Origin: Cyanobacteria bacterium FACHB-63
Lineage (GTDB): Bacteria; Cyanobacteriota; Cyanobacteriia; Leptolyngbyales; Leptolyngbyaceae
Length of the DNA: 64,000 nt
Direction of reading: 5' to 3'
Assembly: GCA_014695255.1 (NCBI GenBank)
Contig: JACJNX010000075.1
Coordinates: 124,001 to 188,000, forward strand
The translations under genes were made by a program, and so were the position numbers. A model generated the notes under the pieces. It worked only from the letters and a program-made list of their open reading frames with translations. It searched no databases and had not been told where the DNA came from. Below are positions 31,772 to 62,074 of the stretch, piece by piece. Numbering within the stretch: position 1 is the first letter of the stretch; every line of letters starts with the position of its first letter.

Positions 31772-31978
31772 TTAAGAACTACACCAAACTGGCATCTCTG
31801 CATGACAATGGCTACAGTGCCAGTACACTTCACCTAGTCTTACATGGCGTAGAAGAACATAGGAACAGCAAGGACAGAGATGCTGACTCGTTGTACTATA
31901 ATCGAATGTAGTTTTGCTGGAAAGGCTAAGATTCGGTTGGGGTGGAACTCTTAAACGGCTGTTGATTGAAGTAGACAT
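31772..31978 (-). CDS. Small Cys4 zinc-ribbon-like protein
   Basis: Protein of 68 residues with CPCC at 35-38 and CSHC at about 55-58, arranged as CxxC(C)-x16-CxxC, a rubredoxin/zinc-ribbon spacing. The core LLRHVRLGEVYWHCSHCHAEMPVW resembles a small family of cyanobacterial proteins in which VYWFCxxCxxEMPV is conserved; function is not established. The N-terminal 30 residues are Ser/Thr-rich and probably disordered. It converges on the response regulator gene. Confidence 0.7.
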   Translation of the reverse strand: MSTSINSRLRVPPQPNLSLSSKTTFDYSTTSQHLCPCCSYVLLRHVRLGEVYWHCSHCHAEMPVWCSS

Positions 31979-32328: not shown

Positions 32329-32616
32329 TTAAGTCCCCAAGTAATTAGAAGATTCCAAAAAGTCATTGTGTATATGACCATTGGGCAGCTTTGCGCCCTT
32401 TAAATTTGCTCCATTAAGGTTAGCTCCTTTCAAAGTCGCCCAATTTAGGTTCGCATTGCTTAGGTCTGAACTACTCAAGTCTGATCCAGACAAATTTGCC
32501 CCAGTGAAGTCCGTCCCTCTTAAGTTTGCTTTTACAAGCCTTAAGTTTCGCAAATCTTCTGTTCTGAAATTTCTTTGTCCGTCTGCGTATCGTTGCAGGA
32601 CTTCATCAGCGTTCAT
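32329..32616 (-). CDS. Pentapeptide-repeat protein
   Basis: Protein of 95 residues. The N-terminal motif MNADEVLQRYADGQRNF is followed by about nine A(D/N)LxX repeats (LRGTDFTGANLSGSDLSSSD and on), ending KLPNGHIHNDF. The repeats form a right-handed quadrilateral beta-helix; no signal peptide. The same N-terminal motif is present in two other pentapeptide proteins within 8 kb. The role of cyanobacterial members is largely unknown. Confidence 0.85.
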   Translation of the reverse strand: MNADEVLQRYADGQRNFRTEDLRNLRLVKANLRGTDFTGANLSGSDLSSSDLSNANLNWATLKGANLNGANLKGAKLPNGHIHNDFLESSNYLGT

Positions 32617-32775
32617 ATTGGTCGCCTCGCGACGTGTAGCGCGATCGCTTGTACTTCTATTCTAAAGCCTTTCTAGTCCTTTAATCGAACAATCGATCGA
32701 ATGACTTCTGCTTCAATTTGAGACTGATTTAAACAATCACTATTGCTCACAATCATTTCTAAATTACTTCTAAAT

Positions 32776-33330
32776 TTAGTCATGAATGCTGCCATCGGGC
32801 ATTATTGTTCTACTTAACCCTGCCTTATCCATATTGGCTCCTTGAATTGTTGCTCCCGTTAGATTCGCTTCACTTAAATGTGCGTCATTGAGGTCTGCAT
32901 CACTTAAATCTGCCCCTCTCAAATCAGCTCCAGTCAAATTTGCGCCTCGTAAATCAGCACTAGTTAGATCTGCCTTACTTAAATCTGCTTTCCGTAAATT
33001 TGCCCCTCCTAGCTTGGCTCCACTCAAGTCTGCACCGCTCAAATCTGCGTGAGTTAAATTCGCCCCGCTGAGGTCTGCCTCGCTCAGGTCGGCGTGCATC
33101 AGGCAAACTTGAATCATTTCGGCATCAGCTAAATTCGCTTGATTGAGCTTTGCTTGGTTGAGATGAGCCTCAGTGAGATCAGCCCCCCGTAAATCCGCTC
33201 CGACCAACTCAGCCCCAATTAGTTTTGCCCCGATCAACTTTGCATCTGTCAAGCAGACTTGAAGCAGTTTGACATGACTGAAATCTCGTTGTCCTGTTGC
33301 ATAGAGTTCTACGATTTCTTGAGCATTCAT
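32776..33330 (-). CDS. Pentapeptide-repeat protein
   Basis: Protein of 184 residues with the N-terminal motif MNAQEIVELYATGQRDF, then about 28 near-perfect A(D/N)LxX repeats (GADLRGADLTEAHLNQAKLN and on) and a closing TIMPDGSIHD. ATG 33330 is preferred to ATG 33339 because it aligns with the starts of the two related proteins and leaves room for a ribosome-binding site. It lies 60 bases after nblA. Confidence 0.88.
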   Translation of the reverse strand: MNAQEIVELYATGQRDFSHVKLLQVCLTDAKLIGAKLIGAELVGADLRGADLTEAHLNQAKLNQANLADAEMIQVCLMHADLSEADLSGANLTHADLSGADLSGAKLGGANLRKADLSKADLTSADLRGANLTGADLRGADLSDADLNDAHLSEANLTGATIQGANMDKAGLSRTIMPDGSIHD

Positions 33331-33389
33331 ATCTTCCATCCTTGGCTTAAGTATTAGTGGAAAGTATTAGTAGAATTTGGCTCTGATTT

Positions 33390-33761: not shown

Positions 33762-34163
33762 TTATGCAGGCATAAGTACCGTATCAATGATGTGAATGAC
33801 TCCATTATCCGCCGCCACATCGGGGGTTGTCACTTGGGAGTTGTTAATTTGAACACCATTAGAGGCATCAATTTTCACATCCGAACCTTGAACTGTTTTA
33901 GCCGACTTCAACTTGGTCACGTCAGCCGCCATAACTTTGCCAGAAACGACGTGGTAAGTCAGGATCTTCTTAAGTTGGGGAATATCTTTGAGCAAGCCGT
34001 CTACAGTGCCTGCTGGCAATTTGGCAAATGCCTCGTCTGTGGGGGCGAACACTGTGAATGGTCCCTTGCCTTTAAGCGTCTCGATTAAACCAGCAGCTTT
34101 AAGAGCAGCAGCTAGGGTGTTAAAAGAGCCAGCCTTAACAGCAGTATCAACAATATCAGCCAT
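33762..34163 (-). CDS. FAS1 (fasciclin) domain protein
   Basis: Protein of 133 residues, essentially one FAS1 domain: [52 protein letters not shown], and the H2 motif [13 protein letters not shown]. There is no signal peptide if ATG 34163 is used, so unlike many adhesive FAS1 proteins it may be cytoplasmic. Single-domain proteins of this type are common in cyanobacteria. It is separated by 204 bases from nblA and 301 bases from the receiver gene. Confidence 0.88.
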
Positions 34164-34464
34164 GAGTTTCACCTTTTGCACTTGTTACTTGCTAACGCTG
34201 ATTGCGCTAACAATTTGAGTATGTCAGCCTGGTGTTTGAGTTCATGTTGGAATTGTTGCTTGGGCTACCTTTTATGACTTATTGCTTAGCTTATAATGGA
34301 TAACTACCTCTAAAGATAGAGCTCTTCAGGAGGTAGATCTAATCAAACAAGCCTTCTACTGTTTGCCGAAATGCAATGAGGGCATGAATAGCTTGATATT
34401 GCCTTAGATCTTCTAGTAGCTGATCAGAAGCTTCTAAGTTTTAGTTGAACGTTTTATGAGTGTT

Positions 34465-34905
34465 TCAATTAAGCCAGCCGAATTCGAGGGTTCTTGATGC
34501 CTGTGTCAACTTCCAAACCTCATCAACAAAATTCTCCAGATTCACAGGCTTCAGCAAATATCCTTCAGGTTTTAACCTCCACCGTTGGGAGAAGTCTGCG
34601 ATCGGATAGGTTGAAGTAATCAAGATCGGAATTGTGCTGTCACTCTTAAGCGCCAGATATCTGGCGCGTCGAATCAGGGGATAAACACTTTCACCTAGAA
34701 ATCTGATTTCACAAATCAAAATTCTAGGCATCAACTTGTTAAGTGAAGTTAATCCGCTTTTGACTGAATCCGTTGCGATGACTCGTGCGCCATAGCTTTC
34801 AAGCAAAAAAGCATAAAAATCTCGGTTGTCACGATCGTTATCCACAATGAGGATCTGAACGTCTTTAAGGACTTCAGGATTCAAAAGTTTCTTTAGATTC
34901 ACCAT
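34465..34905 (-). CDS. Receiver-domain protein with Asp-to-Glu at the phosphorylation site
   Basis: Protein of 146 residues made of one receiver. The acidic pocket is present (VDNDRDN, about 21-27), the conserved Lys is K119 in GYLLKPV, and the Thr/Ser site is ITS at about 96-98. The phosphoacceptor position in RILICEIRFLG is Glu66 instead of Asp. Glu in this place often mimics the phosphorylated state, so the protein may be permanently active. There is no output domain. It lies 137 bases after the ApcA-like gene on the same strand. Confidence 0.8.
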   Translation of the reverse strand: MVNLKKLLNPEVLKDVQILIVDNDRDNRDFYAFLLESYGARVIATDSVKSGLTSLNKLMPRILICEIRFLGESVYPLIRRARYLALKSDSTIPILITSTYPIADFSQRWRLKPEGYLLKPVNLENFVDEVWKLTQASRTLEFGWLN

Positions 34906-35042
34906 AGTAGCCTCGTCATAAGAAATCTGCGTTACTTCTCATGTCCTTTCTAAATAAGTGTGGTTCGATTTTCTAATTGAATTGATTGATTACGACACAA
35001 ATCGTTACCTAAAGTCTGTCGTAAGGCAGATGAGGGTGTGTC

Positions 35043-35528
35043 TTACTGAAGTCCACTAATTAAGTAGTCAAAATAAGCACCGACTTCGTTTGCGTCTTCT
35101 GCCGACATGAGTGAAGTTGTCATCCCCTTCATGGCACGAACGCTTTCAGCAACGCCTTCAAGTGGTGTACCGAGGGAATTGTACATTTGACGCACTCCAA
35201 TCAATCCAATTTCCTCAAGCGGAGTTGCTTCTCCGGCAGCGACGCTATAAGTGATCAAACGCAAATAGTAATCCATATCTCGCAGACAGGTCGCAGTCAT
35301 CTCCTCGCCATAAGCATTGCCACCTGGAGAAACTAGACTGGGACGGCGCTGGAACAATTGGTTAGCAGCTTGCTTAATAATGCGATCGCGGCTTTCGGTC
35401 AAGGTCCTCACCAATCGGAGACGGCGATCGCTGCTCATCATAAAGCCTTTGATCTGCTCCATTTCTCCAGGGGTAAGATAGCGGCATTCTGCATCTGCAT
35501 TTACAATTAATTTCTGAACTACACTCAT
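35043..35528 (-). CDS. Allophycocyanin alpha-type phycobiliprotein (ApcA paralogue)
   Basis: Protein of 161 residues, the length of ApcA. It has the ApcA core: [14 protein letters not shown], the chromophore-binding Cys in [19 protein letters not shown], and [18 protein letters not shown], ending [13 protein letters not shown]. Sequence is closer to ApcA than to ApcD or ApcF, but differs at many surface positions. It is a single gene with no apcB partner or linker nearby, unlike a standard apcABC operon. Two copies of TGTTTGATTTCG lie 42-75 bases before its start. It may replace core ApcA under a stress condition; this is inference. Confidence 0.85.
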
Positions 35529-35569
35529 GATTAAGTTCCTAATCTTTTACAATTATGGTGACAGAGTGG

Positions 35570-35602
35570 TGTTTGATTTCGTGGATGAATTGTTTGATTT
35601 CG
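35570..35602 (-). promoter_or_regulatory. Direct repeat TGTTTGATTTCG x2 upstream of the ApcA-like gene
   Basis: TGTTTGATTTCG at 35570-35581 and 35591-35602, repeated every 21 bases (two helical turns), on the upstream side of the ApcA-like gene. The same element recurs upstream of the NACHT gene. This looks like an operator or promoter element; the second copy extends to a 19-bp repeat also found at 37978. Confidence 0.55.
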
Positions 35603-35606
35603 CTAC
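35588..35606. repeat. 19-bp direct repeat, left copy
   Basis: AATTGTTTGATTTCGCTAC, three bases beyond the 3' side of the NACHT gene. Copy at 37978-37996 differs at one position (C to T). The pair brackets a 2.4-kb segment containing only the NACHT gene. Confidence 0.8.
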
Positions 35607-35609
35607 AAT

Positions 35610-37928
35610 TCATTCCCCTTGCCATTCTCGATCTTCTAGCTCTTTTTGTGGCAAGAGCAAGGTAGCTTCAATCTCTTGTCGAATTGCCGCTGTGACTTCG
35701 CAGTTACTATTCAAGCAGTCAACCAGGAGTTGGTTGGCATCGTAGTAACGCTGTAGGACTTGCTGTTGTTCAGGGCTAAACTGCCAGGGATGCTGAATGT
35801 TGCGATGCTGCGCGATCGTGGCTCGCAGTCGTTCTACCCAAGCGGAATAGTTTGCCTGCCACCAGTCCTGAAGTCGTTCCCGGTTTTCATTTGGAGCGGG
35901 CAACTGATCTCTTAGCTGTTGTAGAGATTTGTAAAATCCAGCATCCAGAACCATCACGAGAATGTTGTTGAGTGCCTCGCTACACGCATTCACATAAGCA
36001 AAATCTTGACTATGATCTGCGGCAAACTCTAGCAGCAAGTTCTGTAATGCCGCATCTAAAAACACTCCCTGGTCTAGAGCGCTCGCTAAGGCAAACTGTT
36101 CTGCCGTATGGGGAGCTTGGGCAAGCGCAAGGTAAAATGCGCGAGTCGTTGCAATTTTCGGCTCGATCGGGATGGTTTGAGATTTTTGGCTGGCCCACAC
36201 TAGGAACTCTTGCAGATAGGGATCTTGAGCCACTAGCCCATCAATTTGTTGTTTCATCAACTGTACAAGCGAATCTGCACTCCGCAACATTGCCGCCGTT
36301 AGCAAGAACACTTCGCGCCAATGCGGATCAGTAATATGACTCACCAATCCTCCTAATGCTTGCTCTAATGCCCGTAGATTGTGACTGGCAACAATTTTTC
36401 GAGCCGTAAAGTATTCTTGAAATGCCAAGTAGGAAAAGGAAAAAATGCCTCGCGCTCGTTCGATTAAGAGTCCATGCTGTGCCTCGATCGCTTTCAGCAT
36501 TGCCTCGCTTTCAAGTTGCAGTTCTTCGGGTTCTAAAGACGCATCTGGTAAGTTTCGCAGATAGTCTCCGATGTACTGTTCAATAATGCGTTGTTCAAAA
36601 AAGTATTGTCCTTGCTCAAAGGTTACTGCCGCCAGTTGACTCAGCAATCTCAGCTTTTCGGGTAGCAAGAAACCTCTGTAAGCATCATCTCGTTCGACTC
36701 CTCTGGCTTCGTCCCATTTGCCCAGCAGGAGATCGAGTCCTTGTTTGTAAAATTCCGTCCGCTTCATGGGAAATTTTTCTTGCCCATGAAACACCCAGCA
36801 GGCAAGATGCAGAAACAAAGGAGTAACGACCAATTGGCGAAACTGCCAGTTCTCCGGTAAGTCTAGTTTCTGTATAAACTGAACGGACTGATTTTGCTCC
36901 GATCGCACCGTTGTTCTACTAAATACAGCAAACCACTTTTGCGCGAATGTTGTGATCTGCGCTTGAGTAAACGGTGCAATCTCAACATCAGTAAAGCCCC
37001 GAAGCTGTAACTTTTGAGCCGCTGTGCGACAAGAGGTGATAAACCGATTGCGATGATGCTTATCTGAGAATTGGCGAATCTCTCGCAGAACGGATGCGAT
37101 GTCCTGATTCAGCAATTCATCAATGCCATCCATCAACAGCAGAACTCGACCTGATTGCAGCAAGGTTTCAAGTACAGAGGGATCTGACACGCCAGAGAGA
37201 AGAAGCCGAGAACGGATATAGTTAAACAGGCTAAATGTCTTGCTGTTCCTCGATTCTTCCGCAAACTCTCGCATCACGATAAAGATCGGCACTTGATCGG
37301 CAGCGAACTCTCCCCGATTGCACTGAATAGCTAAATGTTGCAGGAAAGTCGTTTTCCCGACTCCTGGCTTTCCCAGAACTCTCAGCTTTGAATAAGTCTC
37401 AACTGCCTGCATTCCTGGGATTTGCTTTTGCTCAACCGCTCCCAAACCCACACGATCGAACTCAGCCCGTTCTAAGTTCTGTAGTTCACCAATCTCGAAC
37501 CATTGTTGGCTGGCAATTTCTTCTAGGATATTGACATCAACATAGATATCATCAATGCTAACCGGACGATTGATATCGAGTAACTGCAAGATACCGCACT
37601 GATTTTGAATCGTGTCTCGATACTGCGATCGTACTTGCTGTACCAGGCTATCCACATCCGGCAGGGTTGCTTTTGCGCGTTCTTCAGGTGTTGGAAAATC
37701 TACGGGTGGATCAAGCGCAATTTCGCGCCACTCTAAATCCAAAATCGAACAAATTTCTAGAAAGATCTGACGATCGACGGGCTGCCCCGTGAAAAACCGC
37801 CAAATCGGTTGGCGGGTTTTTAAGTTCACTTCTCCCGCCAGATTTTCTTGCGTCCAGCCTTTAATAGCAAATGCGCGTTTAGCCTGCTGAATGCCAGCAA
37901 GAGATGCCTGGAGCGAGCGTTTGACCAT
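35610..37928 (-). CDS. NACHT-domain STAND NTPase with N-terminal HTH
   Basis: Protein of 772 residues. Residues 1-70 resemble an XRE-like helix-turn-helix (GWTQENLAGEVNLKTRQPIWRFF and on). The NACHT module has Walker A GKPGVGKT (186-193), Walker B LLLMDGIDELL (D267-E271) and a sensor-like SCRT near 297. The rest is helical, probably an autoinhibitory and sensing part, without recognisable LRR, WD40 or TPR repeats. NACHT proteins are signal-transducing ATPases, and some bacterial ones protect against phages. The gene is isolated between clpC and the ApcA-like gene and is bracketed by near-identical 19-bp direct repeats. Confidence 0.85.
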   Translation of the reverse strand: MVKRSLQASLAGIQQAKRAFAIKGWTQENLAGEVNLKTRQPIWRFFTGQPVDRQIFLEICSILDLEWREIALDPPVDFPTPEERAKATLPDVDSLVQQVRSQYRDTIQNQCGILQLLDINRPVSIDDIYVDVNILEEIASQQWFEIGELQNLERAEFDRVGLGAVEQKQIPGMQAVETYSKLRVLGKPGVGKTTFLQHLAIQCNRGEFAADQVPIFIVMREFAEESRNSKTFSLFNYIRSRLLLSGVSDPSVLETLLQSGRVLLLMDGIDELLNQDIASVLREIRQFSDKHHRNRFITSCRTAAQKLQLRGFTDVEIAPFTQAQITTFAQKWFAVFSRTTVRSEQNQSVQFIQKLDLPENWQFRQLVVTPLFLHLACWVFHGQEKFPMKRTEFYKQGLDLLLGKWDEARGVERDDAYRGFLLPEKLRLLSQLAAVTFEQGQYFFEQRIIEQYIGDYLRNLPDASLEPEELQLESEAMLKAIEAQHGLLIERARGIFSFSYLAFQEYFTARKIVASHNLRALEQALGGLVSHITDPHWREVFLLTAAMLRSADSLVQLMKQQIDGLVAQDPYLQEFLVWASQKSQTIPIEPKIATTRAFYLALAQAPHTAEQFALASALDQGVFLDAALQNLLLEFAADHSQDFAYVNACSEALNNILVMVLDAGFYKSLQQLRDQLPAPNENRERLQDWWQANYSAWVERLRATIAQHRNIQHPWQFSPEQQQVLQRYYDANQLLVDCLNSNCEVTAAIRQEIEATLLLPQKELEDREWQGE

Positions 37929-37950
37929 AGAATAGAAGGCTTATATTAAA

Positions 37951-37990
37951 AAATCAAACAACCTCTCTTAAAACCATAATTGTTTGATTT
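37951..37990 (-). promoter_or_regulatory. Inverted pair of TGTTTGATTT upstream of the NACHT gene
   Basis: AAATCAAACA (37951-37960) and TGTTTGATTT (37981-37990) are perfect 10-bp inverted arms with a 20-base spacer, starting 22 bases before the NACHT start codon. Dyad symmetry and position suggest an operator, possibly for autoregulation by the protein's own HTH. Confidence 0.55.
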
Positions 37991-37996
37991 CGTTAC
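37978..37996. repeat. 19-bp direct repeat, right copy
   Basis: AATTGTTTGATTTCGTTAC, five bases from the 3' end of the clpC paralogue. Matches 35588-35606 at 18 of 19 positions in the same orientation. Confidence 0.8.
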
Positions 37997-38000
37997 CGTC

Positions 38001-40430
38001 TCACTCGATCGACTGAGATTGCTTAACAACCCCAATCTCTCCATGCTCATCTAGATCAACTTTCGCAGAATCACCAGACTTGATTCGACCCGAAAGGATT
38101 GCCTCAGCCAAACTATCTTCCAGCAAGCGAGTAATCGCTCGTCGTAACGGACGCGCACCTTGCTCTGGGTGATAACCTGTTTCAACAAGACGATCTTTAA
38201 CACGATCGCTCACTTCCAGCTTGATGCCTTGTTCTAACAAGCGATCTGAAAATTCGCGAAGTAACAGATCCGCAATTTGTTTGACTTCATCGTGTGTCAA
38301 TTGTCGGAACACAATAATGTCATCTAAACGATTCAAGAATTCCGGGCGGAAGTATTGCTTCAGTTCTTCATTGACTAAACTGACAATGCGACTATAAGAG
38401 GCTTCTGAAGCATTGTCTGATACTTCAAAGCCAAGTCCGCCGCCTCCTTTCTGAATCACCTTTGAGCCAACATTCGAGGTCATCACGAGCAGAGTGTTCT
38501 TGAAGTTCACAGTGCGACCTTTCGCATCTGTTAAGCGACCATCTTCTAGAATCTGCAACAGTAGATTAAACACATCAGGATGTGCCTTTTCAATCTCGTC
38601 GAATAGAACAACCGTGTAAGGCTTGCGTCGAACGGCTTCGGTTAACTGTCCACCTTCGCTATAGCCGACATATCCTGGCGGAGAACCAATCAGTTTAGAA
38701 ACCGTATGGCGCTCCATAAATTCAGACATATCTAAGCGAATCATTGCCGATTCAGAACCAAAAAAGCAGTCTGCTAAGGCTTTGACTAACTCAGTCTTAC
38801 CGACTCCCGTTGGACCTGAGAAAATAAATGATGCGATCGGGCGATTCGGATTACTTAAGCCCAATCTTGCGCGGCGAGTCGCTCGTGCGACCGCATTCAC
38901 TGCCTCGTCTTGTCCAATCAGCCGTTGATGCAAGACTTCTTCCAACTGCATCAACTGCTCTGATTCCGCTTCGGTGACTTTGTTCACCGGAACACCTGTC
39001 CAAGCCGAGACGATCTGAGCAATATCGACTTCATCCACCACGATCGAAGAGCCAAACGCTGGAGCCTGGGGCTGAACCTCTGCTTGCAAAGTCAATTCGC
39101 TCGATCGTAATTCGCTCGCTCGCTTAAAGTCCTGTTGAGCGATCGCGTTATCTTTGTTGACGATAATCTGTTTGAATCTTTCATTCAAGCTCTTCTCCAG
39201 CTTGAATTGTTTACCGTGAAGGATTCGAGCGCGAGATCCCGCTTCATCAATCAAGTCGATCGCTTTATCGGGGAGCAATCGATCAGAAATGTATCGATCT
39301 GCAAGCTTTGCTGCCGCTTCTAGCGCTAGATCTGAAATCTCTAGACGATGGTGCTGCTCATAGCGACTGCGTAACCCTTGTAGAATCAAAATTGTTTCTT
39401 CAACGCTGGGTTCATCAATCATCACGGGTTGAAATCGTCGTTCAAGTGCCGCATCTTTCTCAAAATACTGACGATATTCATCCAGCGTCGTCGCTCCGAT
39501 ACAGCGCAGTTCGCCCCGCGCTAAAGCAGGTTTAATAATATTCGCAGCATCGAGCGATCCCTGAGTAGAACCTGCCCCTAGCAAGGTATGAACTTCATCG
39601 ATCACTAAAATGATATTTCCCGATGCACGAACCTCCTTCATGATGGTTTTGAGGCGTTCCTCAAATTCACCCCGGTACTTCGTTCCGGCTAGTAAGGTTC
39701 CTATGTTCAAGGTAAGAACCTGCTGATCTTGAAGCGTTTCGGGTACATCTCGATCGACAATCCGCTGCGCCAGTCCCTCTGCTAAAGCAGTTTTTCCGAC
39801 ACCGGGTTCACCAATTAAAATCGGATTGTTCTTAGTCCGGCGACCCAAAATCTGAATGATTCGCTCTACTTCCTGCTGGCGACCGATCACCGGATCAAGT
39901 TGTCCCAACGCCGCTAGTTCAGTTAAATTTGTGCCGCACTCATTCAAAATCGGCGTATTCTTACGACCGGAACTATTGCCTTTTAACACTGGCTTCGCTT
40001 CAGAGATAGCTTGCAGCACATTAATCCGGATTTCAACCCGCTCTACACCCATTCGCTCTAAAATCTGAGTCGCTAACCCTGCTTCATCCTGCGCGATCGC
40101 AAGCAGCAGATGCTCCGGCTCTACCTGACTATGCCCCAGTCGCTCCGCTTCCTGCAAGGACTGTTCTAATACACGCCGACTCCGAGGAGTAAACGGGATC
40201 TCAGCACGAGACAATCCTGTGCCGCGACCAATCACCGCCTGCACCTGTTCTTGTGCTTCTTCCAGAGTGACATCTAGATCAGCTAACACTTGTGCAGCAA
40301 TGCTAGGGCGAGTCGCAATCAAGCCCAGTAAAAGCTGTTCTGTACCCACATAGTTATGTTCAAGGCGGCGAGCTTCAAGCTGAGCCGCATTAACTACTCT
40401 AATGGTTCTCTCTGTAAATTTATCAAACAC
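38001..40430 (-). CDS. clpC: ClpC-type AAA+ chaperone subunit of Clp protease (paralogue)
   Basis: Protein of 809 residues that unfolds substrates for ClpP. Two N-terminal Clp repeats (about 4-70 and 80-145), AAA+ module 1 with GEPGVGKT (207-214), a short ClpC-type middle domain (INKD-like [17 protein letters not shown]), AAA+ module 2 with GPTGVGKT and the ClpP-binding loop GGGGLGFE (LGF tripeptide) are all present, so it should work with ClpP. The N-domain is divergent from the standard cyanobacterial ClpC (for example [19 protein letters not shown] and [14 protein letters not shown]), which suggests altered adaptor or substrate choice. The start codon is GTG. nblA lies on the same strand 4.4 kb downstream. 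Confidence 0.9.
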
Positions 40431-40494: not shown

Positions 40495-40857
40495 TTAGAC
40501 CTGTGGCAGTCTCAGACGCTTCGAGAGCGTACTAACAGTGACTCCAGCAGGTAGAATTGCACCTTTAAGATAGGTTTGATTCAGAGTAGCTTCACTTAGG
40601 CTGGTGTCGCTTAAATTTGCTTCAGTCAGATTTGCTCTGGTGAGGTTGGCTTCGGTTAATGTTGCCCCAGTTAGAATTGCACGTGTAAGATTGGCACAAC
40701 TTAAGTTAGTTCGAGTTAAATTTGCCTTTGTTAAATTCGCACCACTTAGATTGATACCAGTAAGGTTTACATTTCTGAAATTGACTGCCATGAGATTCAT
40801 ATTGCTGAAGTCTCGTTGTCCCGCAGCATATCGGCTTAGAATTTCTTTGGTATTCAT
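40495..40857 (-). CDS. Pentapeptide-repeat protein
   Basis: Protein of 120 residues. N-terminal motif MNTKEILSRYAAGQRDF, then about fourteen A(N)LTx repeats (SGANLTKANLTRTNLSCANL and on) and a C-terminal TVSTLSKRLRLPQV tail. Same N-terminal motif as the two pentapeptide genes near 32.3 and 33.3 kb. It lies 64 bases before clpC on the same strand and could be co-transcribed. Confidence 0.85.
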   Translation of the reverse strand: MNTKEILSRYAAGQRDFSNMNLMAVNFRNVNLTGINLSGANLTKANLTRTNLSCANLTRAILTGATLTEANLTRANLTEANLSDTSLSEATLNQTYLKGAILPAGVTVSTLSKRLRLPQV

Positions 40858-57484: not shown

Positions 57485-58810
57485 TTACCGATCAAGCATC
57501 CGTTTTTCAGCCGAAGTCCTCATTTCTGCTGCTTTCTCGTAAACCGTGGTATTCGGTTTCACTTGATCAAGCCGATCAACGATGGCGCGTAGCTGTCCAA
57601 GAATGTAGGAGCGATCGACTCGATTTGGATCAGCATTTGAAATCAAGCGCTGAGTCATTGCTTGTGCGGATTCGTAAGCCGCAACAGAATCCTTCTCATG
57701 CTGAATTCTCTCTTTAATCGCATTGAGACCCTGCTGATAACTGGTCATTCTGCGGCTTGCTTCTACATAATCTGGATCAGCGGGTTGGATTTGCTGTAAT
57801 TTGGCGATCGCGCTCTCCCAGTTCTCCTGCACCTGACTTAACTGAATTTGCGACATTGGTTCGTTTCGAGTTTGTTGTCTGGCAACGTTTGCACTGATTT
57901 GCGCCACTTCGATCAATCGACGATTGCGATCGCTCTCGGCTTGAACTTCAACGGTGGTACGAAAATCGCGTTCTGCTGCGCTCAATTTCTCGCGGGCAAG
58001 CCGTCCAGCCAAGGTTGAAGCGGGCAGTTGGCTGAGCGTATCAATCGCTGCTCTCCAGTCCGCGATCGCAGATTGACGACTCTTCCCAGTCGCACCATTC
58101 CGAATCATACCGACAGATTCGCCTAATGCCTGTTCAGCTTGCTCAAACCGAGTTTGAGCGTCCTTTTCCTGCAACAACTTCGTTTGTATTCGGGCAACTC
58201 GTTCACGCGCAGCTTTGACCTCTCCGATCGTAAACTCGCAGTCACCCTCATCGCAGTCGTCGTCTGAGTCTTGTCTTAACAACGAAAGGGGTAGTTCGTC
58301 TAAATGCTTTTGCGCCGCTTCGACTTTTTGTAGTCCCAAATCTAAGTCTGTAAATGCAGTTGCCTGGTTCACTAATTGCTCGGATTGCTCAATCAGCGCG
58401 ATCTCCTTGCGATAGTGATCCTTCATTGCCATGTAGCTCGGTGTGAGCAAAACCGGAGCGACTTGCACAACCGAATCACGCAGCCACGGGATCGGAAGAT
58501 TGACGAACCAAATTCCGCTTGCTGAAAGCGAGATCGCACTTGCTGCAAGCTTCAAGCAAATCCACAAAGGCGGCGATGGGCGATTGGCTTTTACAGCTTT
58601 CCGTAGAACTTTGGGATTGAGATTTGGAATCAAATGATCGATCGCATTTCGCAATTCTGCTTCAGTTGCAGGTGTTCCCGATCGACAGCGCAACTTCTCC
58701 AAACGACGAAGGGCAAGCTCAAATTGAACTTGCCCAATCTTATGCGAACCAAGACATCGTCGAACCTCAGTCTGGAGGATGTAAAATGCTTGATTGTTCA
58801 AACGCTTCAT
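57485..58810 (-). CDS. Membrane-anchored coiled-coil protein of unknown function
   Basis: Protein of 441 residues. A single hydrophobic segment (WICLKLAASAISLSASGIWFV, about 102-124) follows a basic N-terminal 100 residues. The remainder is strongly helical with long charged repeats (QLVNQATAFTDLDLGLQKVEAAQKHLDELPLSLL; EKDAQTRFEQAEQALGE), consistent with coiled coil or degenerate TPR-like helices. An acidic Cys-containing stretch DSDDDCDEGDCE stands out near 182-192. I recognise no catalytic motif; related proteins occur in other cyanobacteria. Confidence 0.7.
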   Translation of the reverse strand: MKRLNNQAFYILQTEVRRCLGSHKIGQVQFELALRRLEKLRCRSGTPATEAELRNAIDHLIPNLNPKVLRKAVKANRPSPPLWICLKLAASAISLSASGIWFVNLPIPWLRDSVVQVAPVLLTPSYMAMKDHYRKEIALIEQSEQLVNQATAFTDLDLGLQKVEAAQKHLDELPLSLLRQDSDDDCDEGDCEFTIGEVKAARERVARIQTKLLQEKDAQTRFEQAEQALGESVGMIRNGATGKSRQSAIADWRAAIDTLSQLPASTLAGRLAREKLSAAERDFRTTVEVQAESDRNRRLIEVAQISANVARQQTRNEPMSQIQLSQVQENWESAIAKLQQIQPADPDYVEASRRMTSYQQGLNAIKERIQHEKDSVAAYESAQAMTQRLISNADPNRVDRSYILGQLRAIVDRLDQVKPNTTVYEKAAEMRTSAEKRMLDR

Positions 58811-58889
58811 TCCAACGAAACCCTATCACAACGCAATATTATTAGGGTTCCCGTTACTCAAACCGAAATGCGAAGGAAAATCGCAGATT

Positions 58890-59345
58890 CTATGAATTAC
58901 TGGTTTGAGTCGCCAGCATTTGTTTGAGTTTTTCCAGTTCTTGTGCCCAGCGCGGATCGGGTTGAACCGAGTCAGGATCAGCAGTAGAAGTGGTGGTGCG
59001 GCGCGATTTGTTGCTGTTGTTGGTGGTGTTGCCGCCTTTGCGCTTTCCACCGGACGCTGCTGCGGGTGCTGCTGCGGGTTCATCGGCTTTGTCTTTAGAT
59101 CGAGGCAACGCTTTTTCAATTTTGATCGCGTTGTCCTTGATGCTGACTCCGTTGTATTTCTCAATGAATTGATCCGCCAATTCATCGGATTTGACGGTGA
59201 CAAAGCCAAAACCGCGGCATTTACCGGTTTTGCGATCGGTGATCAGCTTGGCGGAGACTCCTTCTCCTGCATCCGCAAATGCAGCTTCGAGGTCTTGCCG
59301 ACTTAAATCTTCGGGCAAATTGCCCACATATAGACGAATTGACAT
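58890..59345 (-). CDS. RRM-domain RNA-binding protein with Ser/Thr/Asn-rich tail
   Basis: Protein of 151 residues. RRM: RNP2 RLYVGNL (4-10) and RNP1 CRGFGFVTV (about 43-51). Residues 84-125 form a low-complexity linker (AAAPAAASGGKRKGGNTTNN and on) and the end is a helix WAQELEKLKQMLATQ. This layout resembles other longer cyanobacterial RRM proteins. A 551-base gap precedes the start. It could bind its own leader, but this is not shown. Confidence 0.88.
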   Translation of the reverse strand: MSIRLYVGNLPEDLSRQDLEAAFADAGEGVSAKLITDRKTGKCRGFGFVTVKSDELADQFIEKYNGVSIKDNAIKIEKALPRSKDKADEPAAAPAAASGGKRKGGNTTNNSNKSRRTTTSTADPDSVQPDPRWAQELEKLKQMLATQTSNS

Positions 59346-59728
59346 ATCGAGACACCTCCAGACTTTGATCCTAATACATGGTACGGACGCTTACCACACA
59401 TCCCTCAGCTACACCTTTCGTTTTCTTGGCTCAGGTTAGACGATACAGACATTTCTGCCACCTTTCGTCAGGACTATATGAAGCAGCACGATCGCACTGC
59501 TGACCCTTCCTCCGGAGGTTTCAGACCAAACCCGGAAAATCTTCAGCGGGTTCGATTCTTGCCGCTGGTGGGATTTGAGGTTAAGCAACTTGGTCACTGT
59601 GTCCCAAGGATATGCGCCACTCTTAAAGGTATCATGCTCGTCTCTCAGTTTCGAGCCACCTGAATAATTTCCCTCCTGAGTGCTATTTCGCTTGTTAGAG
59701 CCTACAAAGTTTTGCCTAAGTCGCGATA
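59346..59728 (-). other. Long leader region upstream of the RRM gene
   Basis: About 380 bases between the RRM start and the terminator of the next gene. No convincing ORF. It contains CCTCCGGAGG and a sequence at 59546-59562 like a tRNA T-arm, but no matching acceptor stem. It may carry the promoter and a long 5' untranslated region. Confidence 0.35.
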
Positions 59729-59729
59729 C

Positions 59730-59758
59730 AAAAACCAGTCAATCCGACGATCGACTGG
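59730..59758 (-). terminator. Rho-independent terminator of the M48-like gene
   Basis: CCAGTC (59735-59740) and GACTGG (59753-59758) pair with a 12-base loop; five T follow on the - strand. Located 139 bases downstream of the M48-like gene. Confidence 0.65.
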
Positions 59759-59896
59759 CTCAGCTTGCTGTGTTGGGAGGAGAAATACCGAATACTGAAA
59801 GTTCTGTAAGCCGATGCACGATCGACTGAGCCACTCCAGGATTGGACTCCTTGTAACGGAATGTAACACTATGTCTAGAGAAAGCGCAACTATTCT

Positions 59897-62074
59897 TTAC
59901 AAAACCTGAGCAATGCCGAACAGAATTGCCGCGATCGCAACCAGTAACGACCAGACAGGATGCCCAGCTCGGATGAGTGATCTCGCTTTAATCGTGTCTA
60001 CATCAATCCAGGGAGTTGCGCTGCGTCGGAGCCATCCGGTGACGACCGCGGGTTGTCCAAGCGGGAGCGCACAAAGTAGATTCCCGATCGCGCCTACCTG
60101 AGAGCAGTAGTGCAGCTTAATTAATCCGGTTTCCGTTTGCAGGAGAAGATCTTGAGCGAGTAGGTTGCTAGCTCCAGCGCGCCCAATCAGCGTTCCTTCG
60201 AGTCGAATTCTGGGGCTATCGAGTTGGGTGAGATGGGGTTGCGTTAGAAGTTCAACGAGATTCCTGTGTTCGTCGCGAGAGTCAGGAAAGAAGCGATTAA
60301 ATCGAATAATCATCCCGATGCCAAATCCAATGCACCCAAAACTTGGAAACAAGCTGTAATCGCTGGCTAACCAATTGAAGCGGAAGTTACCAATGGCAAA
60401 AAGAGCATGAGCCATTAGCCAGAGTAATGCTGCGATCGTAATGCCTCCTAATCCGCCAAACAGGGGTGCGAATTGCAGTAAGGGTTGCTTGCGCTTATCT
60501 GGGGTGAGAGTTTCGAGTTCGAGTTCAGGTTTGAGGTGCCATTGCTGACAGTAATTCATCAGTTTTTGCAGTCGAATTCCCATCAAAGCATGAGGGCTAT
60601 TCAACAGGGATAAACTGCGATCGCAGTTAGCAAAATCCCACTGAAATAAAGTCGATAAGGAGACTCGATCAAATAGCCCTTCAAATAAAATTGCGCTGCG
60701 ATAACTCACAGGATTAAGAAGCTCAAAACCTTCTAATAAATAAGGAGTTCGCTTTTCGTGTTTGATTGTTTCAGCCGTCGCGATCATTAATTTAATCAAG
60801 GTTCGTGCTAGTCCATTTGGATTGCCTGTGAGACTGCAAGCATGACGATCGCTATAGATAACACGCTCTCTTGAAAGCCATAATCCTAACCCGCGAAACA
60901 GCCAGAAGAATCCATAAGCGAGCGCAGAAATCAGCCCCATTGCATCAGCAGGAATTTGAATGAGTTTAGAAACAGAAGCCCGATTTAGCTTTAAGATTCG
61001 GAGTCGATCGCTGACGATCGCGCTTAATTGATAAATCGAATAAGGGATCTGCAGCACAACAGCAACAAGCGACATCCAAGCAAAATCCCCATGAGCAATA
61101 TGACTTACTTCTCCGGCGTAAATTGCAGCAATTTCTTCATCGGTTAGCTGATCTAAAAGCCCTTGACTCACCACAATTCGAGCAAATTTAGGTAAGCAAC
61201 CGTAAGTAAACGCGATCGGAACCGAAGTCGGCAAAATTCCGAGCTTAGGAATAGAAATTTTCTGCTGCTGGGCAAATCTTTGAATCAGGCGATGCGCCTC
61301 TACGCTGTGACGAGCGATCGCAGCCGTGGAGAGCGGTTTGAGTCCGTACAGCCCTTTCAGCACCGCATCTAAAATCCACGGAGATGCAAAAAATAAGAGA
61401 ATCAAGCTCAATCCAAATTGCAGTATCGGAATGGTTTGATCGGGAACAGCAATGCTCCAGCGCAAGAGCCGCGCCACCGCTGTATGGGGCAGCGAGGAAG
61501 TGAAACCCGCGATTCGCCAGAGCAAGCACAACGTCACAAAGAGCGCGATCGCGCCTCCAATTTCTGCACATCGCAACCGCATCGGATTAAGCGGAGGAAG
61601 GGGTTGCCAGCGCTGAGCGCGATCGGCATTTTTCCAGACGTGCGGCGTTGGGGCTGGGGTGATTTCAGGTGGAACTAGCTCTGATCGAGACTCTGCTTGA
61701 ATTGTTGCGGCGTTTTGCAGGGATGGCGCTACTCGTTTGCGTCGAACCGGTTGAACTGTGGGATCAAGCGGCACAAATCCTGGATCGGTAGACGCGAGCT
61801 TTGCCATCATTTGCGTCGCCCACGATCGCACCTTTTCGTGATGGCTCTGTTGCAGTTCTTGACAAAGCGCGATCGCTAACTGAATTTTTCCGCTTTGCGC
61901 GTATGCCTGCACCAATCCCATCTTCGCTTTGACCGCATCCGATGAATTGAGTTCGGAAGAAGTGAGGCACCGGTTAAGTTGTGCGATCGCGCTTTCGATC
62001 TGCCCGCTTTGAAGCGCCATTAGCCCTGCTTCTAGCTGATTCTGACAAGAAGCAGACTCCGGAAAAGAAGACAT
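59897..62074 (-). CDS. TPR + M48-like membrane protein lacking two zinc ligands
   Basis: Protein of 725 residues. The N-terminal about 80 residues carry a TPR-like helix pair; then several membrane segments; then an HtpX/M48-type fold. The normal HExxH is here G321-E-V-S-H325 in IAAIYAGEVSHIAHGD, so the first His is Gly. The downstream SRxxE zinc-binding Glu in SRERVIYSDRHA is Val405. Both changes argue that it is not a standard metalloprotease. The C-terminal part has a soluble domain (RIRLEGTLIGRAGASNLL and on) and more membrane helices. No SOS-like or heat-shock operator seen. Confidence 0.75.
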   Translation of the reverse strand: MSSFPESASCQNQLEAGLMALQSGQIESAIAQLNRCLTSSELNSSDAVKAKMGLVQAYAQSGKIQLAIALCQELQQSHHEKVRSWATQMMAKLASTDPGFVPLDPTVQPVRRKRVAPSLQNAATIQAESRSELVPPEITPAPTPHVWKNADRAQRWQPLPPLNPMRLRCAEIGGAIALFVTLCLLWRIAGFTSSLPHTAVARLLRWSIAVPDQTIPILQFGLSLILLFFASPWILDAVLKGLYGLKPLSTAAIARHSVEAHRLIQRFAQQQKISIPKLGILPTSVPIAFTYGCLPKFARIVVSQGLLDQLTDEEIAAIYAGEVSHIAHGDFAWMSLVAVVLQIPYSIYQLSAIVSDRLRILKLNRASVSKLIQIPADAMGLISALAYGFFWLFRGLGLWLSRERVIYSDRHACSLTGNPNGLARTLIKLMIATAETIKHEKRTPYLLEGFELLNPVSYRSAILFEGLFDRVSLSTLFQWDFANCDRSLSLLNSPHALMGIRLQKLMNYCQQWHLKPELELETLTPDKRKQPLLQFAPLFGGLGGITIAALLWLMAHALFAIGNFRFNWLASDYSLFPSFGCIGFGIGMIIRFNRFFPDSRDEHRNLVELLTQPHLTQLDSPRIRLEGTLIGRAGASNLLAQDLLLQTETGLIKLHYCSQVGAIGNLLCALPLGQPAVVTGWLRRSATPWIDVDTIKARSLIRAGHPVWSLLVAIAAILFGIAQVL

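Follow-up and report, generated by a model that had tools for sequence, protein, structure and literature searches.

Comparative analysis of a conserved promoter-like element linking an XssQ-like NACHT gene with ApcA-like and other predicted stress genes in cyanobacteria

The STAND ATPase MalT carries a C-terminal HTH of the LuxR type; it occupies sites arranged in tandem and activates transcription from promoters without a normal -35 sequence. XssQ, the closest studied relative of the NACHT protein described here, was characterized as an HTH-STAND activator by mutants, qPCR and gel shift and binds single or tandem AAGTTxxAC sites (PMC8205485); XssQ and XssR together are sufficient in a foreign host, and Synechococcus elongatus PCC 7942 lacks an xssQ homolog (PMC13125312). 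The XssQ gene lies on plasmid pSYSM of Synechocystis sp. PCC 6803, where it adjoins the XssR and XssS genes. Bacterial NACHT/NLR-like conflict proteins have been interpreted as sensors in immunity or cell death that carry effector domains; they likewise contain a NACHT NTPase and are common in filamentous cyanobacteria (PMC7159879, PMC8195603).

The gene that we compare with these systems lies in a cluster with the order clpC-NACHT-ApcA-like-receiver-fasciclin. It was found in the window, by which we mean the whole 64-kb stretch of DNA that was analysed, taken from a genome of 7.2 Mb (G000). The genes of the cluster are as follows:

38001-40430, minus strand: clpC paralog, first in the gene order
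35610-37928, minus strand: NACHT gene, proposed regulator, 772 aa (XRE-like HTH, NACHT NTPase and NCH2)
35043-35528, minus strand: ApcA-like allophycocyanin alpha paralog, proposed target, 161 aa (Pfam Phycobilisome)
34465-34905, minus strand: stand-alone response-regulator receiver, proposed target and possible partner, 146 aa (Pfam Response_reg)
33762-34181, minus strand: fasciclin-domain protein, probable target, 139 aa (Pfam Fasciclin, 1.1e-41)

The ApcA-like protein scores 302.6 bits with NCBIfam ApcA, and a second apcA, 68% identical to the ApcA-like gene, is present on contig C138 of the same genome. ApcA-like genes are repeatedly neighbours of NACHT orthologs, while homologs of the receiver and of the fasciclin protein were found in 27 and 8, respectively, of 104 NACHT-related loci. 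The minus-strand gene at 31772-31978 encodes a small protein rich in Cys (CPCC...CSHC) that has no Pfam family, and its homologs adjoin NACHT orthologs in 31 of the 104 loci. Several genes resembling those for pentapeptide-repeat proteins (by inspection) are located near the cluster at 32329-33339 and 40495-40857, both on the minus strand. The clpC-type gene is a third paralog that, among the relatives searched, occurs only in the five genus members with the NACHT-ApcA-like cluster; it shares 62-68% identity with the remaining ClpC copies in the genus.

Residues 1-765 of the 772-aa NACHT protein align with XssQ (pSYSM 57972-60311) at 36% identity in a tblastn comparison, with the same domain order from end to end. 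Pfam identifies the NACHT (1.1e-18) and NCH2 (3e-38) domains and gives no HTH match in this protein, but the N-terminal region is identical to the HTH of XssQ at 42 of 71 residues (59%). An AlphaFold model of this region built from 11 sequences had a pLDDT of 84 (the fold from a single sequence was poor, with a pLDDT of 51) and matched the XRE/Cro-type structures SinR, HipB, C.AhdI and EDF1 with TM values of 0.54-0.64 and a best Foldseek E-value of 2.9e-3. According to this model, the N-terminal domain is predicted to fold as an XRE-type HTH. Its putative recognition region, TRQP-x-WRFF, is invariant in 11 ortholog sequences. The HTH of MalT is unrelated to this N-terminal, XRE-like domain. 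In contrast to the NACHT/NLR-like conflict proteins, the protein described here has a predicted DNA-binding domain and is linked to a conserved promoter element. Shorter NACHT orthologs with open frames of 664-677 aa are found in G002, G004, G012 and G027; these lack roughly residues 600-715, which precede the end of the C-terminal helical domain.

The spacers flanking the NACHT gene share a short word, which is written AAATCAAACA on one strand and TGTTTGATTT on the other. The following copies were read directly from the sequence:

35570-35581, plus strand: TGTTTGATTTCG, proximal copy in the spacer before the ApcA-like gene, with the core AAATCAAACA on the gene strand
35591-35602, plus strand: TGTTTGATTTCG, distal copy, at a 21-bp period with the proximal copy
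37951-37960, minus strand: TGTTTGATTT, directed toward the NACHT gene, 32 bp before its ATG
37981-37992, plus strand: TGTTTGATTTCG, between the clpC paralog and the NACHT gene

Both arrangements reported in the preliminary description are thus present at these positions: two direct copies with a 21-bp period before the ApcA-like gene, and an inverted pair with 20 bp between its arms before the NACHT gene. A 14-mer, ATTGTTTGATTTCG, is common to the two spacers (35589 and 37979). Exact TGTTTGATTT occurs only four times in the 64 kb, always within these spacers, and 16 matches with at most one mismatch are found in the window against 8.8 expected. The word is not scattered at random across the genome: TGTTTGATTTCG occurs five times in 7.2 Mb, three of them at this locus, with two occurrences of the reversed control. 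Of the other two copies, one falls within a coding frame, and one is situated on contig C173 between the gene for an orange carotenoid protein (OCP) and a BamA/ShlB-like gene (named by inspection). No other inverted pair with a gap of 5-35 bp was found in the G000 genome. The repeats are real and above chance.

The clpC-NACHT-ApcA-like cluster is present in four other genomes of the genus. Upstream of the ApcA-like gene, all four retain AAATCAAACA and the pattern GAAATCAAACA-N6-TGTCA, and three have the exact pair, with the second TGTTTGATTTCG copy at 21 bp (exact in four of the five genus members). Upstream of the NACHT gene, CGAAATCAAAC is kept in all four relatives, and thus in five of five genus members, while the second arm is degenerate in each of the four (TTTGAG/TTTGAT/GTGAG), so that the perfect dyad is particular to G000. 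This comparison indicates that the word is under constraint and the perfect dyad is not. In other genera the distal copy is replaced by AATCAA, giving two AATCAA blocks 17 bp apart, and the 21-bp period is confined to the genus of the window. The argument that period and dyad symmetry mark the operator of a dimeric regulator is not supported, as the dyad is broken in relatives and the blocks are spaced differently in other genera. In G007 (locus L070), the NACHT gene is flanked by insertions of palindromic GCCCCGGAATAGAATTCGGGGC-type repeats, both upstream of it and between it and the ApcA-like gene, and the elements have stayed in place.

The word, described earlier as a shared 10-12 bp element, is real, but it is only the core of a promoter-like element of approximately 45 bp, TCAATCAAnTCAnTCAnGAAATCAAACAnCnnTCTGTCAnnGT. 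This element consists of AATCAA, 11 bp (15 bp in the genus of the window), AATCAAACA and TCTGTCAnnGT; the consensus of 67 aligned sites (alignment A1) is GnAnTCAATCAAnTCAnTCAnGAAATCAAACAnCnnTCTGTCAnnGT. Three copies are found in the window, and its distribution is wider than the two genes originally named, since the receiver and fasciclin genes also carry it:

35554-35601, minus strand: full-length element before the ApcA-like gene, GAAATCAAACAATTCATCCACGAAATCAAACACCACTCTGTCACCATA (42.2 bits, E-value: 8.6e-12; PWM 51.1)
35555-35560, minus strand: -10-like hexamer CACCAT before the ApcA-like gene (C-A-n-n-g-T in the alignment)
34950-34993, minus strand: element before the receiver gene (27.2 bits, E-value: 4.5e-7; PWM 25.8)
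34218-34257, minus strand: weak element before the fasciclin gene (11.8 bits, E-value: 0.034; PWM 17)

The first of these spans positions 1-48 of model R1 and includes both direct copies of TGTTTGATTTCG. The fasciclin site contains GAACTCAAACACCAGGCTGACA (34222-34243); it is weak when taken alone and is kept in G002, G004 and G006. The best PWM match in the window outside the cluster scores 9.7. A matrix built from 14 sites and scanned over 2.66 Mb of fetched DNA identified 83 distinct sites; with a lower cut, the reversed DNA gave none. A coding origin of the element was ruled out, as in-frame stops occur in and beside it at most sites. A class-wide search for paired AATCAAACA returned mostly unrelated repeats and was not taken as evidence beyond the cluster itself, the OCP site and a small number of NACHT spacers.

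Ahead of ApcA-like genes the element is kept in several genera (G002, G004, G006, G007, G023, G064, G204 and an Aphanocapsa MAG), at varying distances from the ATG. When 42 genomes of the order were searched for an exact 16-base pattern, ten matches were obtained (reversed control, 0), of which eight are in ApcA-like promoters or upstream of an ApcA-like gene, one is the OCP spacer and one is apparently unrelated. The fourth element of G000 is located beside the OCP gene on another contig and points away from that gene. A 28-codon frame, MAQTIAQLKASWQITASAPLLERRTIAD, follows it (L174:7749-7832, contig C173) and overlaps the end of the BamA/ShlB-like gene; this frame has no relatives among the fetched loci and no Pfam match, and may be what a rearrangement has left of a truncated gene. 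The end of the element, CAnnGT, resembles a -10 box, its A being conserved in 100% and its T in 97% of 69 sites. If it serves as one, the core would cover approximately -31 to -22, the AATCAA block would lie near -47 to -42, and the transcription start in the window would fall near 35548, some 20 bases ahead of the ApcA-like ATG. To our knowledge, the element does not resemble the NtcA, RpaB HLR1, Pho box, NdhR or RcaC sites. In the full-text papers that were searched, neither the element nor this NACHT branch was described.

A total of 83 distinct regions upstream of NACHT orthologs were collected. The 61 orthologs from outside the genus with at least 65% identity have 25 exact copies of TGTTTGATTT in 15.2 kb of upstream DNA, compared to a mean of 0.125 and a maximum of 2 in 200 shuffles, although these counts are not independent because the regions are related by descent. 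The density of TGTTTGATTT is 1.64 per kb upstream of these orthologs versus 0.06 per kb elsewhere in the same loci, and an unprompted count of 9-mers gave GTTTGATTT as the most widely shared. The copies, found in many families in spacers that are otherwise divergent, usually point toward the NACHT gene; outside the genus they lie at -36 to -66 (as TGTTTGATTT or TGTTTGAATT) or near -150 to -160 (TGTTTGATTT). Downstream of the orthologs, AAATCAAACA is reversed in orientation, faces the next gene and forms part of the longer block. Among orthologs with less than 65% identity there was no upstream enrichment of TGTTTGATTT (one match in 17). Because the sites at NACHT promoters are without the CTGTCA/-10-like part of the ApcA-type element, the ApcA-like and NACHT genes are not under identical operators. 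Comparative genomics supports the earlier suggestion of a common factor for the two genes.

Co-occurrence of the element with the NACHT gene was assessed in 388 cyanobacterial genomes of the class using a sequence-only model of A1, with cuts of E ≤ 1e-4 per genome for the element and E ≤ 1e-220 for a NACHT ortholog. The NACHT branch was found in about a quarter of these genomes. The element is present in 83 of the 93 genomes with an ortholog versus 19 of the 295 without one (Fisher p ~6e-54, phylogeny ignored), and in 43 of the 53 ortholog-carrying genomes outside the training set of the model. The same pattern is observed within the family of the window (17/18 with an ortholog versus 4/24 without, p 7e-7) and within the genus (5/5 versus 0/3). 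This association partly reflects shared ancestry and linkage, as most of the sites used for training were taken from the neighbourhoods of NACHT genes. Linkage alone is insufficient to explain it, however, as 81 of the 144 strongest sites in NACHT-positive genomes are on contigs other than that of the NACHT gene (some draft contigs being short). Sixteen element-positive, ortholog-negative genomes were searched again: G231 has broken NACHT pieces, G142 has a fragment, and several are incomplete assemblies. The main counter-examples are G090, G179 and G261, which have strong elements and NACHT relatives only ~40% identical; G021 and G097 have strong elements with relatives that are only ~40% identical or not detectable. 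In these five genomes, recognition of the element may depend on a paralog or a different factor; a paralog 60% identical to the NACHT protein is present in G000. At least 15 element matches each were counted in G056, G141, G149, G255, G283 and G303, which suggests a large regulon in these genomes.

XssQ offers a comparison for the sites as well as for the protein. AAGTTxxAC and AAATCAAAC agree at five of seven fixed positions and differ at two. The xssL sites on pSYSM read AAGTTAAAC...CACGAAGTTAGAC (the names xssE and xssL were assigned here from product names and gene order). In 30 kb of pSYSM, the only match to the element model, which was trained without Synechocystis sequence, was GAAATCAGACAGCGATCCATCA in the xssE upstream region (E-value: 0.004), where GCACGAAATCAGACAGCGATCCATCAAGCT, the model match, is accompanied by two AAGTTxxAC sequences. 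Of the independent indications that HTH domains of the XssQ type may read this family of elements, this match is the strongest. As in the XssQ system, short predicted sites occur here in tandem immediately ahead of the putative promoter, one site is near the regulator's own gene, and a response regulator that has no DNA-binding domain, a possible partner, is encoded nearby. This receiver shares only 22% identity with XssR, and no kinase resembling XssS was identified for the NACHT system. While XssQ controls sulfated-polysaccharide genes, the genes linked to the element here are those for ApcA-like, receiver, fasciclin, OCP, CsbD and Dps-like proteins. No sulfotransferase gene cluster was seen behind the elements examined, which limits the name "synechan regulator" and not the assignment to the regulator family. 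We consider the NACHT protein to be a putative regulator of the XssQ kind with a different, broader set of predicted targets. The proposal that its own HTH is the common factor is well supported by these comparisons, and this HTH is the best candidate, to which the TGTTTGATTT copies upstream of orthologs, the co-occurrence in 388 genomes and the XssQ homology all point.

The element might instead be read by a different factor, such as an alternative sigma factor or another activator, with the NACHT gene being only a regulon member that shares the promoter type. The conservation from approximately -49 to -7, abutting the -10-like CAnnGT, could be explained by sigma plus an activator, and strong elements are retained in some genomes that have no close NACHT ortholog. 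On the other hand, the co-occurrence with the ortholog is strong within both family and class, the core without the -10 part marks DNA upstream of NACHT genes, and the HTH is 59% identical to that of XssQ, whose similar site is located at the same kind of promoter. We regard a different factor as unlikely on this evidence. It is very improbable that the inverted pair before the NACHT gene serves, instead of as an operator, as a rho-independent terminator for the clpC paralog upstream, even though the G000 RNA forms an A+U-rich stem of 14 bp right after the clpC stop, with a U run behind it (z -3.5). This hairpin is not conserved, being absent in G006 and G007 (z 1.3 and 0.4) where the CGAAATCAAACA arm is kept, and a terminator explains neither the direct copies on the ApcA side nor the NACHT orthologs without clpC.

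The flanking of the NACHT gene by GTAnCGAAATCAAACAATT, with 18 of 19 bases identical, would also fit direct repeats of 14-19 bp left by insertion of the gene, through target duplication or recombination between the spacers, and having no regulatory role. Such an insertion scar is largely refuted by the presence of the same element ahead of unlinked genes and in other gene orders, and the conservation on the ApcA side reaches well past the repeat; we give this explanation hardly any weight. Similarity of A+T-rich spacers by chance or composition has still less to recommend it: 10-mers do recur in such DNA, as the 16 one-mismatch matches in the window illustrate, but the shuffles, the reversed pattern, the reversed loci and conservation across genera lead us to reject it.

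From the comparisons of sequence above, we consider it probable that AAATCAAACA is bound by the NACHT protein, which would regulate its own gene and act as the activator of a stress and photoprotection regulon. In the mechanism that we propose, AAATCAAACA would be the core recognition site of the NACHT protein, which is encoded between two such sites, and this protein would be an XssQ-type STAND regulator with an XRE-like HTH at its N terminus, then a NACHT switch ATPase and, at the C-terminal end, a helical region. At its own promoter the core stands alone, as TGTTTGATTT facing the gene or as an inverted pair, and would serve in autoregulation; at target promoters the core would cover the -35/spacer region, with the protein acting as an activator that replaces the -35 contact, rather than as a repressor. 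A stress signal, possibly relayed through a phosphorelay by the neighbouring stand-alone receiver as XssR does for XssQ, would put the NACHT domain in the ATP state. In this state the protein would assemble, through its HTH, at AATCAA/AAATCAAAC sites in tandem and bring RNA polymerase to the promoters of the ApcA-like, receiver and fasciclin genes and to the one adjacent to the OCP gene.

In the loci that were read, the element is linked to ApcA-like genes (in many genera), stand-alone receivers, and genes encoding CsbD-like, Dps-like ferritin, pterin carbinolamine dehydratase and small Cys-rich proteins, together with other functionally unassigned genes; in three Nostocales loci an OCP-like gene is located ~680 bp downstream of an element. 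These genes are suggestive of a general stress and photoprotection set. It seems reasonably likely to us that this is a widespread, undescribed cyanobacterial stress and photoprotection regulon, run through the ~45-bp element by a self-regulating, NLR-like, DNA-binding NACHT activator, with more than 10 target promoters in some genomes and with targets including allophycocyanin and OCP paralogs, Dps, CsbD and the partner receiver. As this NACHT branch has a predicted binding site and a predicted list of targets, its function is directly testable. Bacterial NACHT/NLR-like proteins have mostly been read as immune or cell-death sensors; if the proposed regulon is real, an NLR-type switch would be tied to phycobilisome and photoprotection genes, and a single worked example, the polysaccharide regulator XssQ, would be widened to a broad family of regulators.
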